Assembly: GCA_945881865.1 (NCBI GenBank)
Contig: CAMCVK010000004.1
Coordinates: forward strand, 124,001 to 188,000
DNA from: Fimbriimonas ginsengisoli Gsoil 348
Lineage (GTDB): Bacteria > Armatimonadota > Fimbriimonadia > Fimbriimonadales > Fimbriimonadaceae
Direction: 5' to 3'
DNA length: 64,000 nucleotides
In this document: piece by piece, positions 25,055 to 33,885 of the stretch
How the letters are laid out: each line of letters starts with the position of its first letter
Position numbering within the stretch: the first letter of the stretch is position 1
Program-made: the position numbers and the translations under genes
Notes under the pieces: model-generated
Seen by the model: the letters and a program-made list of their open reading frames with translations, nothing else
Told to the model about the DNA's origin: nothing
Database searches by the model: none

Positions 25055-25070
25055 TGTTTCACGTGAAACA
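25055..25070. other. parS: parS centromere-like site (ParB binding)
   Basis: TGTTTCACGTGAAACA is a perfect 16-bp palindrome and an exact match to the widely conserved chromosomal parS consensus (TGTTNCACGTGAAACA). It lies in the short gap between cdsA and valS. ParB nucleates here and spreads to load SMC and segregate the origin region. Chromosomal parS sites usually cluster around oriC, so it also hints at the location of the origin. No parA or parB gene is in the window. Confidence 0.93.
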
Positions 25071-28597: not shown

Positions 28598-29996
28598 GCT
28601 TCACCGGCCTCCAGAACCACAAAATTGCACCGTAGTAGATGAACAGTAGATAACCAGAAAATGCTGGCACGGGGAACTGCAGCCGGGGATCAGAGCCGAG
28701 CGATGTCGTAACCCACTCGATCCACCGAAGCGGATTCACGAGAAGCCAAGGTGCCGCCCAAGCGGACACGCCGGGAAACACTGAACCGATCGCAGCGAGC
28801 CCGAGACCAGCAAAGAACAACACCGTGATCGCGCTGGCGATCAGCAAGTTTGCCAGCAACGCCAGACCGGGCACGAAGCCAAAGTAGTAGGCGGTCAGCG
28901 GCGATGAAGCCCAGAAGCCGATCCAAGACGAGCGGAGGAGGTTCTTCCACGGCAGGTCAGTTTCGCCAATCCCGCCAAATAGCCCAAGAAACAGCATTAC
29001 GATGAAGGAAAGCTGCGCTCCGATCTGGAAGATCGCGTTGGGCTGCCAAAGCAAAATGACGATGCCCGCGATGCACCACGACGATAGGAAGTCGCGCTCC
29101 CGGCGATAGAAGAACGCCCCGTACGCAACAAGGAACATGATTGCGGCCCGAACCACCGCCACGCTGGCACCCGCGACCAGCGTGTACAGAATCAAAACCG
29201 CCGCGATCAATCCGAACCGAAACCCACGCGGAACCGGGAGACGCCGAACGAGCAACGCGATGATCGAGGCGAAGGCGGTGACCTGCATTCCCGAGGCCGC
29301 GACCACATGAAAAGTGCCGGTCGCCCGCAACGACTCTGCGGTTTTCTCAGGCAGAAGATCCTGGGAGCCGAGCACGAGCGCATTCATAAAATTAGCTGGC
29401 TCTCTCGGAAGCCAGGCGTTCATCCGACCGCTAAACATGAGGGACGCACTTTTAGCCGTCCGGGCCAACCAAGTGCCCTCTCCAACAACGGCAACCCGGT
29501 CCGGCACGACCCGGCCAGAAACGCCTTGCACCCGAAAGTTCATCTCAGTTTCGGGTCGCAACGGTCGAACCACACCTCCAAATTGCAGCCGATCGCCAAC
29601 GATCAGGCGATCCGCAACTGGCCCATGCGAAAGAAAAACCCGATAGCCCATCGAGCTCGACTTTGCGTTGAAGGTAACGCCGTCTGGCCTGACCCTAGGA
29701 ACCGACACGACTTCCACGACCTCCCGCCGGTAGGAAGAAGCCTCCAGACGAGGTGCCAACTGCGGGGTAAGCACGGCCCCAAGCAAAAAAGACAGCCCGA
29801 GAGAAACGCGAAACCGGCGGTCATTGACAAACCACAACCCAGCCAGAAGAAAGAATATATGGCCCGGATGTTGCCGCAGCGTGAGCCCGACCACCAGCCC
29901 AAACAGGACGGCCACCGCCGGCCGCGCGGCTAGCTGCTGCTTAAGACTCGTCCAGCCGAGTTGGTCGCTGCCTTCTTCGTTCTTCGGCAATCTCAC
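28587..29996 (-). CDS. comEC: ComEC/Rec2 competence channel protein lacking the metallo-beta-lactamase domain
   Basis: This polytopic protein should carry single-stranded DNA across the inner membrane during transformation. The 469-residue product has N-terminal helices (about 25-75), an OB-fold-like soluble part (about 95-185), and the competence domain with about eight helices (220-465) bearing the signature H-V-V-A-A-S-G-M-Q-V (about 229-238) and V-V-R-A-A-I-M. It ends before the usual nuclease-like domain, which the next gene encodes. The GTG start makes it overlap the dciA-like gene by 56 bp; a start further inside is possible. No other competence genes are in the window. Confidence 0.85.
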   Translation of the reverse strand: MRLPKNEEGSDQLGWTSLKQQLAARPAVAVLFGLVVGLTLRQHPGHIFFLLAGLWFVNDRRFRVSLGLSFLLGAVLTPQLAPRLEASSYRREVVEVVSVPRVRPDGVTFNAKSSSMGYRVFLSHGPVADRLIVGDRLQFGGVVRPLRPETEMNFRVQGVSGRVVPDRVAVVGEGTWLARTAKSASLMFSGRMNAWLPREPANFMNALVLGSQDLLPEKTAESLRATGTFHVVAASGMQVTAFASIIALLVRRLPVPRGFRFGLIAAVLILYTLVAGASVAVVRAAIMFLVAYGAFFYRRERDFLSSWCIAGIVILLWQPNAIFQIGAQLSFIVMLFLGLFGGIGETDLPWKNLLRSSWIGFWASSPLTAYYFGFVPGLALLANLLIASAITVLFFAGLGLAAIGSVFPGVSAWAAPWLLVNPLRWIEWVTTSLGSDPRLQFPVPAFSGYLLFIYYGAILWFWRPVKREA

Positions 29997-30363
29997 GGAT
30001 GCTGCGACTATAGTCCATTCCAGATGGCGGTGTCACCGGTTTCGGTACCGGAGGTTGAAAGAACTTCCCATCTTCTTCCGGCCGAACGCTAAACCGCACG
30101 TCACGGAAGAGGTCGTCTTCGCCAGAGTGCCGCCGCAAGATCGCCAAAATACGTTCTTTTTGCATTCGCAATTCTTGATGCCAAACGCCGCTTTGGACGG
30201 TAACGTAGAGCACACCGTCGTCGTAACGGTCCGGCATGCACTTCTTGGCCAAAACGTCCCCGACGAGAGAATTCCAGGCGCGCATGGTTAGCCTGGCCCG
30301 GGCCGTTCGCAAAACATCCCGTTGGCCAACCACTTGGTCCACCATATCGCCGACCCGTCTCAT
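29941..30363 (-). CDS. DUF721 / DciA-like protein
   Basis: DciA-family proteins help load the replicative helicase in bacteria that lack DnaC or DnaI. The 140-residue product has the DUF721 core (about residues 1-85: W-N-S-L-V-G, then L-Y-V-T-V-Q-S-G-V-W-H-Q-E-L), followed by a charged, Arg-rich and probably disordered tail. The ATG at 30363 overlaps the recF stop (ATGA), a better start than the upstream in-frame codon at 30447. recF followed by a DUF721 gene is the arrangement seen next to dnaA-dnaN in many bacteria. It is short but normal for the family. Confidence 0.8.
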   Translation of the reverse strand: MRRVGDMVDQVVGQRDVLRTARARLTMRAWNSLVGDVLAKKCMPDRYDDGVLYVTVQSGVWHQELRMQKERILAILRRHSGEDDLFRDVRFSVRPEEDGKFFQPPVPKPVTPPSGMDYSRSIREIAEERRRQRPTRLDES

Positions 30364-31487
30364 TCCACGTGAATCGTACCGGCATCTACCGAGAAAACCC
30401 GGCTTGCTTTCAAGATCTTCTCGCCGGCTGCCGAAGCCTCGGTGCACGTCAAAATCGCCTGCCGCGCATAGGCAATCACGACTTCAACCAAGTGGGCCCG
30501 CCGGTGCTCATCCAGGTCGCTCAGGATGTCATCCAGTAAGAGAACCGGTGCCGCCCCCAAAACCTCGCGTGCGGCCAACAGAGAGGCAACCTTGATGGCA
30601 ATGACGGCGGTTCGTTGCTGCCCCTGCGAGCCAAACTGACGGGCCGTGCGGCCAGATATCTCCACGCCCAAATCATCGCGGTGCGGTCCCACCCCGGTTC
30701 CTCCACGTGCGGTGTCGGTCGGTCGGCTTTGAACCAGGAGATCAGCCAACTCCCCCTCGTCGTTCCGCTCCACAAAAAGCGACAGCTCTTCGCCGGGTGC
30801 CATCTGGCGGTGGACCTCCTGCGCCACCGGCCGCAACCGGTCGAGGTGCTCATTGCGGAATTGCCGCATTGCGGTGCCGTGCTGAGCGATCTGGACCTCC
30901 CACGGCTCGAACACCTCCCCGGGCACGAATTGCTCACGAGAGAGCCGCAGAAGCGAATTTCTTTGCTCCACGGCCCGCTTGTAAACGGAAAGATGCCGGA
31001 GGTAGGCCGGATAAAGTGCCGAAAGCTCAAGGTCGAGAAACAGCCGGCGGTCGCTGGGTTCCCCCCGAACGATCGCCATATCTTCGGCGCTCATGCAAAC
31101 GCACGGCAGCCGGCCAATTAGGTCGGCGGCTCGAGGCAGCCCCAGCCCGTTGATCGCGGAGCGCTTCCGGGCGTGCCGGTCCAACACCACCGAGAGTTGG
31201 GTCGCCCCTTCGCGCAGGGTTCCCAAAACGGTTGCCTGTTCGGTGCCTTCCAAAATCGCCTCGGCGTCTTTACGTCCACGCAACAGCCGGGTGGTTGCCA
31301 GCAGGTAAATCGCCTCAAGGAAATTCGTCTTGCCCTGAGCATTGGCACCGGCAAACACGTTAAATCCTGGCGACAAGACAACCTTCTGCTCCGCGTAGTT
31401 TCGGTAGTTCCGCAAGGCAACTTCCTCCAGCACGAAGACCTCCCTGGAACCCTGTTCGATCACAAAGGGTTCAGAGTTTTCCAGCAT
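30360..31487 (-). CDS. recF: DNA replication and repair protein RecF
   Basis: RecF is an SMC-like ATPase that directs RecOR to gaps. The 375-residue product has the N-terminal L-R-N-Y-R-N-Y block (about residues 25-31), Walker A G-A-N-A-Q-G-K-T-N (about 48-56), the ABC signature region S-Q-G-Q-Q-R-T (about 289-295), and Walker B V-L-L-L-D-D-I-L-S-D-L-D (about residues 319-330). AGGA lies upstream of the ATG. dnaN and dnaA, its usual neighbours, are absent; instead the gene faces the 260-bp AT-rich gap with DnaA-box-like motifs. Confidence 0.95.
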   Translation of the reverse strand: MLENSEPFVIEQGSREVFVLEEVALRNYRNYAEQKVVLSPGFNVFAGANAQGKTNFLEAIYLLATTRLLRGRKDAEAILEGTEQATVLGTLREGATQLSVVLDRHARKRSAINGLGLPRAADLIGRLPCVCMSAEDMAIVRGEPSDRRLFLDLELSALYPAYLRHLSVYKRAVEQRNSLLRLSREQFVPGEVFEPWEVQIAQHGTAMRQFRNEHLDRLRPVAQEVHRQMAPGEELSLFVERNDEGELADLLVQSRPTDTARGGTGVGPHRDDLGVEISGRTARQFGSQGQQRTAVIAIKVASLLAAREVLGAAPVLLLDDILSDLDEHRRAHLVEVVIAYARQAILTCTEASAAGEKILKASRVFSVDAGTIHVE

Positions 31488-31747
31488 GGTTTCCTATAAG
31501 AGCAGACAATGAATACTTATCTAGATTTATTATGATGGCGGGGATAACTTGGCCTGCGCGGTCACAAAGCGAAGCATATTTATCGGTTTAAGCCACTAAA
31601 CCTGAAACGAACTCACCGTTTCGGCCCGTGGAAAACTCGGGAATAAGCGATGATTTCTTCCACAATCGGTGCCTGGTTTTCCCGCCGGAAAAGTTAGCCC
31701 ATCTTTTCCGTTTTTTCTCCACAGAGTTTTCCACGCGTTCTGCACGT
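31488..31747. other. oriC: Candidate replication origin (oriC): AT-rich gap with DnaA-box-like motifs
   Basis: This 260-bp gap is among the longest in the window. It holds an AT-rich block (about 31493-31537) and five 9-mers close to the DnaA box TTATCCACA: TTCTCCACA at 31715-31723 (8 of 9), TCTTCCACA at 31656-31664 (7 of 9), TTTTCCACG at 31727-31735 (7 of 9), its inverted copy at 31627-31635 (7 of 9), and TTATCCCCG on the minus strand at 31539-31547 (7 of 9). A 12-bp GAGTTTTCCACG occurs exactly in both orientations (31724-31735 and the complement of 31627-31638). recF-dciA lies beside it and a perfect parS 6.4 kb away. It could instead be only the recF promoter region. Confidence 0.5.
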
Positions 31748-32494
31748 CTACAGCAGGCCGTTCTGGCGGCCATATTTCATGACGGCGGCCTCGGCCAGAT
31801 AGATAGGATGCATGTTCGGAAGGATCGGAATGTTCCGCCTTTCGGCGATGGGAAGGAAGACCTCCCGGGTGAGCCGCTGTTGCACCGTGCCTGAAAGCTC
31901 GGGGAATCGGTCCGCGAACCGACGAAGGGCAAAATACTCCTCCGTCGTCATTCCCTTCAGGTCGCCGATTTGGGACTCTAGCGGGTGGATGCCGGCGGTG
32001 TGGGGCGTAATCGAGATTGATCCGGTTGGCATCTTTTCGCTGCAAACCACCGTTCCGGCGATGAGATCACCCACCCGCTGGGAACGAGGATTCGTGAACA
32101 TGGCACCGATTCCCACCAAATAGGTCCCCGGCAAAAGATCCGCCGGTCGCATGAGATTTCGCGAGAACGCTGCGAGAAAGGTGATGGGCGTTCCGTCGGC
32201 CATCCTAACCCGCAACCCGGTGGCTTTCTTGCCGATGGTTTGTCCGTTCCAAAAGCCCTCCAAGAGAATGAAGTAGAGGAACGGGAAAAACGTCGCGAAC
32301 ATCGCAGACAAGCCGGACGCAATGGCGCCGCCGATGACGCTGCTTGCGAGGAAAGTGCCAATTGCAGTACCGACGATGCTCGCGACGATAATCCCGATGT
32401 CGATGAGATGTGCGCCGGCGCGTGCCCCCAATCCGGCTAACCGGAAGGTGAGGATGGATTTTTCCGGCGTGAGAATCGCCAGGTCCTGTTGCAC
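31748..32494 (-). CDS. RDD family membrane protein
   Basis: The 248-residue product has the RDD domain with about three to four membrane helices (about residues 33-155). It shows the typical entry L-A-G-L-G-A-R-A-G-A-H-L-I-D (about 18-31, an R-x-x-x-x-x-I-D variant), F-W-N-G-Q-T-I-G-K (about 80-88) and a later R-N-L-M-R-P-A-D-L-L-P (about 111-121). The C-terminal 90 residues are soluble and unknown. Its biochemical role is unclear; RDD proteins are linked to transport or ion exchange in some bacteria. The GTG at 32494 is chosen because TACACT lies 6 nt upstream and RDD proteins usually begin just before such a D-L-A-I-x-T-P-E segment. It is divergent from the DUF58 gene. Confidence 0.85.
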   Translation of the reverse strand: MQQDLAILTPEKSILTFRLAGLGARAGAHLIDIGIIVASIVGTAIGTFLASSVIGGAIASGLSAMFATFFPFLYFILLEGFWNGQTIGKKATGLRVRMADGTPITFLAAFSRNLMRPADLLPGTYLVGIGAMFTNPRSQRVGDLIAGTVVCSEKMPTGSISITPHTAGIHPLESQIGDLKGMTTEEYFALRRFADRFPELSGTVQQRLTREVFLPIAERRNIPILPNMHPIYLAEAAVMKYGRQNGLL

Positions 32495-32500
32495 AGCTAA

Positions 32501-32506
32501 AGTGTA
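32501..32506 (-). promoter_or_regulatory. -10 element TACACT placed for a leaderless RDD transcript
   Basis: On the minus strand TACACT ends 6 nt before GTG 32494. This decides the start of the RDD gene against an upstream in-frame ATG at 32566. Confidence 0.55.
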
Positions 32507-32577
32507 ACCGAGTTCCGACGGGGGTAAGGCCTGGGCCCAAATTGTTCGGCCAGATTCGATTATCATGCCGTAGAGAG

Positions 32578-33885
32578 ATGGTTTTTACGCGCCGGTTCCT
32601 TTGGTTCTTGCTAGCGGGCATACCGATTGCCGGTATCGCCGCGCTGCTTGGCGCGCCGGCCGTTGCCGTTGCCTATAACGTCCTGCTTTTTGCGGCGGCC
32701 TACATTACTTTTCGTCTCATGCCCCGGCTCGACGGCCTAACCGTCACCCGCAAGTTCGATCCCTTGCTTTCGGTTCGCGCCGATAACAAGGTCCGGCTGA
32801 TTTTGAACAACGAAGGCGCCGAACCGATTCGCGGGATTGTTCGCGATGAACCACCGGAGTTCTTCCCCACCTCTAACAAGCCGTTCCCATTCCTATTGCA
32901 ATCCGAAGAGCCGCTGGAATTTCAGTACACGGTCACGCCCCAAGAACGCGGCCTGCACCAGTTTCGAGGCACGTTTTTACGGTTGGATTGCCCATTTGGG
33001 CTGGTCACCCGGGACGTATTTTTGGCGAACGAAGAGCCAGTTCGCGTTTATCCAAACCTTCTTGCGCTGCGCGAGTTTGATCTCCTGAAGCAGCAGGGAC
33101 GCCTGCGGGAAATCGGAATCCGCCGAACGCGCAACCGTGGCATCGGCATGGAATTTGAATCGCTGCGCGACTATGGCGACGGCGACGACTTCCGTAAGAT
33201 CGACCACAAGGCCAGCGCGCGCCGCGGAAAGCTCGTGGTTCGGCAGTACGAAACCGAGCGCAACCAGGTGGTGATGATCACCATCGACATCGGTCGGCAC
33301 ATGCTGGCCGAGGTGAACGGCGTCCGCAAGCTCGACTACGTGCTGGATTCGCTACTCATGCTCACCAACGCGGCGGCGATGGCGGGCGACCTGGTGGGCC
33401 TACTCGTGTATAGCGACCAAGTTCGTCGGTACCTTCCGCCGCGCAAGGGCCGCGCGCAGGTTGGGGCCATCATTGAGGCCTGCCACGACCTCGTCTCCGA
33501 GCCGGTCGAATCGGACCCGGTGGCCGCGTTCTCGTACCTCGCCACCCGGTGGAAGCGGCGCTCCTTGCTGGTTTCGTTCACGGACTATGAGGATCCGGAC
33601 CGGGCGAAGGAACTGCTGTCGGCGTACGTTCCGCTGGCGCGGCGACACTTGGCGCTCATTGCCCGCGTACTGGACCCACGGCTTGCGGAAGTGACGGAGA
33701 AGACGATTGAGACTCCGCAGGACATGTTTGCCGTAACGGCGGCGGGAATCCTCTCGGAGGACCGGCAGAAGGCAACCATGTTGATGACGTCGGCGGGCAT
33801 CCAAAACCTGGAATCGGAACCACAAGACCTCGCCGCGAGCCTCGTCACGTTTTACTTCCGCGTGAAAGAACGCGCCTTGTTATAG
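32578..33885 (+). CDS. DUF58 domain-containing protein
   Basis: The 435-residue product has two N-terminal membrane helices (about residues 4-48), a beta-rich segment (50-160), and the DUF58 region with F-E-S-L-R-D-Y-G-D-G-D-D-F-R-K-I-D-H-K-A (about residues 194-213). A vWA-like domain follows (from about residue 235, M-I-T-I-D-I-G-R). Such proteins usually accompany MoxR AAA+ ATPases and vWA proteins in envelope or stress modules. None is adjacent here, which is unusual. The ATG at 32578 follows a GAGAG run directly; the frame opens further upstream, but that part overlaps the divergent promoter. Confidence 0.87.
   Translation: MVFTRRFLWFLLAGIPIAGIAALLGAPAVAVAYNVLLFAAAYITFRLMPRLDGLTVTRKFDPLLSVRADNKVRLILNNEGAEPIRGIVRDEPPEFFPTSNKPFPFLLQSEEPLEFQYTVTPQERGLHQFRGTFLRLDCPFGLVTRDVFLANEEPVRVYPNLLALREFDLLKQQGRLREIGIRRTRNRGIGMEFESLRDYGDGDDFRKIDHKASARRGKLVVRQYETERNQVVMITIDIGRHMLAEVNGVRKLDYVLDSLLMLTNAAAMAGDLVGLLVYSDQVRRYLPPRKGRAQVGAIIEACHDLVSEPVESDPVAAFSYLATRWKRRSLLVSFTDYEDPDRAKELLSAYVPLARRHLALIARVLDPRLAEVTEKTIETPQDMFAVTAAGILSEDRQKATMLMTSAGIQNLESEPQDLAASLVTFYFRVKERALL

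Follow-up and report, generated by a model that had tools for sequence, protein, structure and literature searches.

The window analysed here is a stretch of 64,000 nucleotides, C4:124001-188000 in a 3.23-Mb assembly of 26 contigs (G000). Its chromosome is that of a Fimbriimonas-like member of the Armatimonadota, and the best relatives of its RecF are annotated as Armatimonadetes or Fimbriimonadaceae, at 58-59%. The feature under study is an intergenic gap (155,488-155,747 on contig C4) directly upstream of recF, whose start side adjoins it. From left to right, the locus comprises parS (25055), valS (+), a metallo-beta-lactamase gene (-), comEC (-), dciA (-), recF (-), the gap, a gene for an RDD-family membrane protein (-) and a DUF58 gene (+) (Table 1). 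A sequence-only reading had proposed this gap as a candidate oriC abutting recF-dciA, with a perfect parS 6.4 kb away and neither dnaA nor dnaN at the locus. The annotation bears out all three points: recF and dciA follow the gap on the minus strand, the parS is at 25055, and dnaA and dnaN, both absent from the 64-kb window, are found on contig C7. The same reading had the genes diverging from the gap, minus to the left and plus to the right. This holds for the left side, but on the right only from the second gene (DUF58) onwards, since the immediate neighbour, RDD, is itself a minus-strand gene. Neither an Rfam scan nor a tRNA scan of the whole window gave a match.

Table 1. Features of the recF-RDD intergenic gap and its surroundings (window coordinates; fractions in brackets are matches to the DnaA box TTATCCACA)
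Feature	Position	Strand	Remarks
Perfect parS 16-mer TGTTTCACGTGAAACA	25055-25070	.	6.4 kb from the gap
dciA (replicative-helicase operator family)	29941-30447	-	Pfam DciA, E=2.6e-19
recF, 375 aa	30360-31487	-	Pfam SMC_N (RecF/RecN/SMC N-terminal domain), E=2.5e-14
Candidate oriC, RDD-recF intergenic gap	31488-31747 (260 bp)	- (recF direction)	Box cluster, profile match, parS linkage
Doubtful box TTATCTAGA (7/9)	31517-31525	+	Inside the AT-rich block
AT-rich triplet run CATCATAATAAA, weak candidate DnaA-trio/unwinding element	31526-31537	-	Permissive NAN rule only, 1-bp spacer
DnaA-box-like TTATCCCCG (7/9)	31539-31547	-	Closest box to the AT-rich block
Tandem forward pair TTATTCCCG (6/9) and TTTTCCACG (7/9)	31627-31646	-	11 bp start to start
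DnaA-box-like TCTTCCACA (7/9)	31656-31664	+	
DnaA-box-like TTCTCCACA (8/9)	31715-31723	+	Best match
DnaA-box-like TTTTCCACG (7/9)	31727-31735	+	Reverse orientation relative to recF; within inverted-repeat arm 31724-31735
RDD-family membrane protein	31748-32566	-	Pfam RDD, E=9.3e-18; conserved other flank
DUF58 gene	32542-33885	+	First plus-strand gene right of the gap

The gap holds six 9-mers that match TTATCCACA in at least 7 of 9 positions (at most two mismatches). The earlier count of five was thus one too low, while its best match of 8/9, TTCTCCACA, stands; the exact TTATCCACA box is absent from the window's own gap. An intergenic cluster of DnaA boxes above chance is expected of an oriC, and dinucleotide shuffles of the gap contain a mean of 0.67 boxes, with none of 2000 reaching five. 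Among all 260-bp windows of contigs C4 and C7 (410 kb), the gap is also the densest in boxes with up to two mismatches, which together with the shuffles rules out a chance origin of the boxes. The 12-bp exact inverted repeat that had been noticed around one box is present (31627-31638 / 31724-31735). With regard to base composition, the AT-rich block described previously peaks at 80% AT over 20 bp (31508-31527), but the gap as a whole reaches only 54%.

Related genomes were used to ask how far this arrangement extends. Twelve recF loci were the first found in Armatimonadota records; in the ten that were read, recF is preceded by a stretch rich in both boxes and AT. In the class, 91 of 101 recF-positive genomes yielded upstream DNA, and 90 of them were counted, G014 being too short. 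Family f1 (73 genomes) averages 1.11 boxes at up to one mismatch within 350 bp upstream of recF, versus 0.07 in shuffled sequences. In family f3, no box is found over the same 350 bp in 9 of 11 genomes, and six of its members (G101, G098, G102, G106, G107 and G112) have no box at up to one mismatch in the upstream DNA fetched; this lack of boxes suggests that the origin of family f3 lies elsewhere or uses a different box. Another f3 genome, G110, carries 11 matches at up to one mismatch upstream of recF (C5:56814-59464), mostly exact copies of TTATCCACA and several of them about 11-12 bp apart, a striking array in a family of the order other than f1.

The layout was analysed in 56 gaps of family f1 that measure 150-420 bp and have an RDD stop recognisable by pattern; gaps outside this rule (for example G035, 597 bp, and G094, 494 bp) and genomes lacking the RDD-stop pattern were left out. 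The order RDD-gap-recF, present in all those kept, is family-wide, a conservation of position and layout that is expected of an oriC, and an MKYGR-type RDD C-terminus borders the gap in all 56 genomes. Read in the recF direction, the alignment consensus runs from reverse boxes (tGgGGAaa, tGtGGA) to a pair of tandem forward boxes (tTTtCCaC...gTTTTCCACa). After a TTTGA-TTCAAA element there is one more forward box, GTTtTCCaC, separated by about 12 bp from TAATAAtAA.aATAA. In the window, the box at 31727-31735 sits in the conserved reverse-box block, and the pair at 31627-31646 is the counterpart of the tandem pair. When 410 kb of G000 DNA was searched with a profile built from the other 55 gaps, its own gap scored E=1.3e-10 and the next distinct place E=2.3. 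In f1 gaps such as those of G018, G019, G026 and G036, a conserved non-DnaA element, TTTGAACCT / AGGTTCAAA, also stands in the stretch from the tandem boxes to the last box. The string TTGAACC occurs at 24 sites in 22 of the 56 gaps, compared with 4.4 sites in shuffles, and the element is degenerate in the window, at about 31590-31606. It is possibly the site of an origin factor.

The end of this consensus resembles the basal unwinding system (BUS) described in PMC8287927, where the rule is given as a DnaA box with up to two mismatches, a spacer of up to 16 bp and at least three DnaA-trios. Adding at least two TAR trios to this rule, strict modules were counted on the recF strand of 31 of the 56 gaps and on the opposite strand of one, with 0.2 in shuffles. 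The spacer measures 12-14 bp in 26 of the 31 and has a mode of 13 bp, which is also the modal spacer in PMC8287927. The remaining 25 gaps fail the strict rule, including that of the window, in which strict trio scans found no module. There, the permissive NAN rule is satisfied by TTATCCCCG-C-CATCATAATAAA, which includes no TAR trio, and by one match on the opposite strand. The trios of the relatives are of the TAATAA type and follow after about 13 bp, whereas the run in the window follows after 1 bp.

A nearby parS is typical of origins where ParABS exists, and the copy 6.4 kb from the gap is the sole one at up to one mismatch in the 3.23-Mb assembly; ParB is present once in this genome, encoded on another contig than parS. 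Across the class, 44 of the 113 genomes carry the perfect 16-mer, at 53 sites in total. Where it lies on the recF contig (35 sites, 31 genomes), all 35 sites are 1.7-18 kb from recF, 21 of them at 5.06-5.35 kb; in many relatives the spacing to recF equals that of the window. Other contigs hold twelve sites (8 genomes), and six (5 genomes) are in genomes without a recF hit. In another class of the phylum, a 6.7-Mb genome (G183) carries 112 perfect copies, most matching genomes having 1-5.

The initiator gene is found far from this neighbourhood. The genome has a single dnaA (C7:77871-78350, minus strand, in an ORF of 462 aa) and a single dnaN (C7:14301-15008), about 63 kb apart, so that the gap, on C4, is not of the dnaA-dnaN-recF origin type, which has these two genes adjacent. 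This dnaA (C7, about 78 kb) is at a local maximum of the cumulative GC skew of its contig, beside an ORF that resembles a thiamine pyrophosphokinase gene. Both recF and dnaA gave hits in 97 of the 113 class genomes searched and, where they share a contig (n=25), they are separated by 84 kb to 1.93 Mb. Outside the class, 11 of 35 hand-picked genomes of the phylum have both genes on one contig, 1.8-4.8 kb apart in nine and about 0.95 Mb apart in two. With dnaA near recF in nine of these 11 informative genomes and a class minimum of 84 kb, the canonical dnaA-recF cluster exists in the phylum and is broken in this class. The sequence-only reading had suggested that a relocated dnaA-dnaN would make the locus a rearranged origin. 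The genes are indeed separated, but for dnaA this is a class-wide state and not a local rearrangement (dnaN was located in the genome under study only), and a recent rearrangement confined to this genome is ruled out by the class-wide split of dnaA and recF.

One rival reading, that of the published F. ginsengisoli genome paper, places the origin at dnaA or in the interval from there to dnaN and takes the recF locus for no more than a region that bears parS. A box cluster beside dnaA denser than that of the gap had been named beforehand as the finding that would tell against the gap; in G000, no such cluster exists and no box is found upstream of dnaA. Upstream regions of dnaA were checked at 33 loci, of which 27 were counted and six left out for short flanks, and the 17 f1 loci have a mean of 0.47 boxes in the 750 bp near the dnaA start. 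Furthermore, parS and dnaA lie 109-884 kb apart at the 14 parS sites with dnaA on the same contig.

GC skew, although weak and jagged across much of the class and uninformative within the 64-kb window alone, also bears on this choice. On contig C4, the cumulative minimum falls at 164,901, 9 kb from the gap, so the skew check proposed with the candidate did not place it elsewhere. The arms measure -0.012 and +0.013 over 75 kb, with a block-permutation p of 0.0027 that does not allow for autocorrelation. At dnaA on C7, the skew of G000 has the sign opposite to that of an origin. Seven single-contig genomes were sampled as 20-kb stretches and not as whole chromosomes, with G063 and G088 left out. 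recF lies inside the best-split interval in four of the seven (G018, G001, G091 and G056), and near it but outside in G073. The best split of G015, at 2.62-2.66 Mb, adjoins dnaA (2.6613 Mb), and that of G101 fits neither gene. The best-resolved skew is that of G091, where 200 contiguous kb show a flat trough at about 1.862-1.897 Mb, whose lowest point, at 1.8656 Mb, is 21.7 kb from the gap (recF start at 1.8873 Mb). One 20-kb stretch of G101 (G101:C1:657800-677799) has a skew of +0.21, far beyond all other sampled stretches, and is possibly a long one-strand gene or a repeat.

For an origin at dnaA there remain the G015 split and a published prediction. In PMC4072686, on F. ginsengisoli Gsoil 348, base 1 is set at dnaA and the origin is predicted at 5.13 Mb, near dnaA, from a jagged, archaea-like GC skew. 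Set against these are the scarcity of boxes upstream of dnaA, the wrong-sign skew there in G000, the distance to parS and the fact that none of the seven best-split intervals contains dnaA, although that of G015 adjoins it. Given the few boxes and the wrong-sign skew in G000, an origin at dnaA was rejected, and we regard it as very improbable. All lines of evidence point to recF except the skew in two genomes.

The parS and skew data define a neighbourhood, narrowing the origin only to about 5-50 kb, and it is the box and trio evidence that singles out the gap. The gap might accordingly be read as a DnaA-regulated promoter region of recF-dciA, its boxes being regulatory and oriC lying elsewhere in the same origin-proximal neighbourhood. 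DnaA boxes are common in promoters, and the window's own gap is without a strict trio module. Notwithstanding, the relatives keep a tandem pair and box-13 bp-trio modules, which is the layout of an unwinding site and not of a promoter, and the box number of the gap is unequalled among the 260-bp windows of C4 and C7 (410 kb). A promoter region of this kind therefore seems improbable, if somewhat less so than an origin at dnaA.

The RDD-recF gap thus very probably serves as oriC in this Fimbriimonas-like chromosome and in its family, a reading drawn from sequence comparison. The candidate put forward from the letters of the window gains from the box and trio layout of orthologous gaps, the class-wide linkage of parS and recF, the skew switches at recF in most, though not all, of the sampled chromosomes and the lack of a box cluster at dnaA. 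Initiation, DnaA binding, unwinding and helicase loading at the gap are predicted functions. DnaA, encoded far off, would bind an array made of a reverse-oriented group on the RDD side, a forward tandem pair and a single forward box towards recF. From this last box, a DnaA filament may grow onto the AT-rich triplet run beside recF (the DnaA-trios), where the duplex would open. DciA, whose gene comes directly after recF, would probably assist in the loading of the replicative helicase that follows. Replication would proceed in both directions, and the nearby parS would let ParABS, with ParB supplied from another contig, segregate the new origins.

The element is of a known kind, and its arrangement is new. 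As described in PMC8287927, the Bacillus subtilis-type oriC with a BUS shares with the gaps of the relatives its forward boxes, a spacer mode of 13 bp and TAATAA/TAG-type trios on one strand by an AT-rich block. Unlike that type, the locus described here has no dnaA or dnaN, its box consensus drifts to TTTTCCAC, the tandem pair is separated from the last box by an extra motif (TTTGAACCT), and no more than a degenerate trio run is present in the window. Origins that do not lie beside dnaA are also found in E. coli, with oriC at mnmG-mioC, and in cyanobacteria, with oriC near dnaN. The uncoupling of the origin from the initiator gene is common to these systems, while the family-wide neighbours kept here are recF-dciA and, on the other side, RDD.

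The prediction in PMC4072686 is the only published one for a Fimbriimonas origin found in the literature searched, and concerns the same genus-level group. The paper places recF at 1,929 kb and remarks that the usual oriC genes are scattered. An origin at recF (1.93 Mb) agrees with such scattering and predicts a different start, and the published position at 5.13 Mb is probably misplaced. The genome taken as that of F. ginsengisoli Gsoil 348 (G018) has the tandem box pair; since it shows no perfect parS and no strict trio module, we infer its origin at recF from orthology and a weak skew.

A tentative, rather unlikely extension of this reading is that the Fimbriimonadaceae have permanently uncoupled their origin from dnaA/dnaN while keeping recF-dciA, and that the conserved non-DnaA element (TTTGAACCT / AGGTTCAAA) might bind an initiation regulator that replaces the feedback usual with dnaA at the origin. 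For a bacterial family that has been little studied, the locus provides a probable origin together with candidate unwinding elements and a nearby parS; assemblies of this family should be neither started nor interpreted at dnaA. With dnaA beside recF in other classes and gone from it in this one, the phylum offers a natural experiment on the effect of having the initiator gene hundreds of kilobases from the origin.
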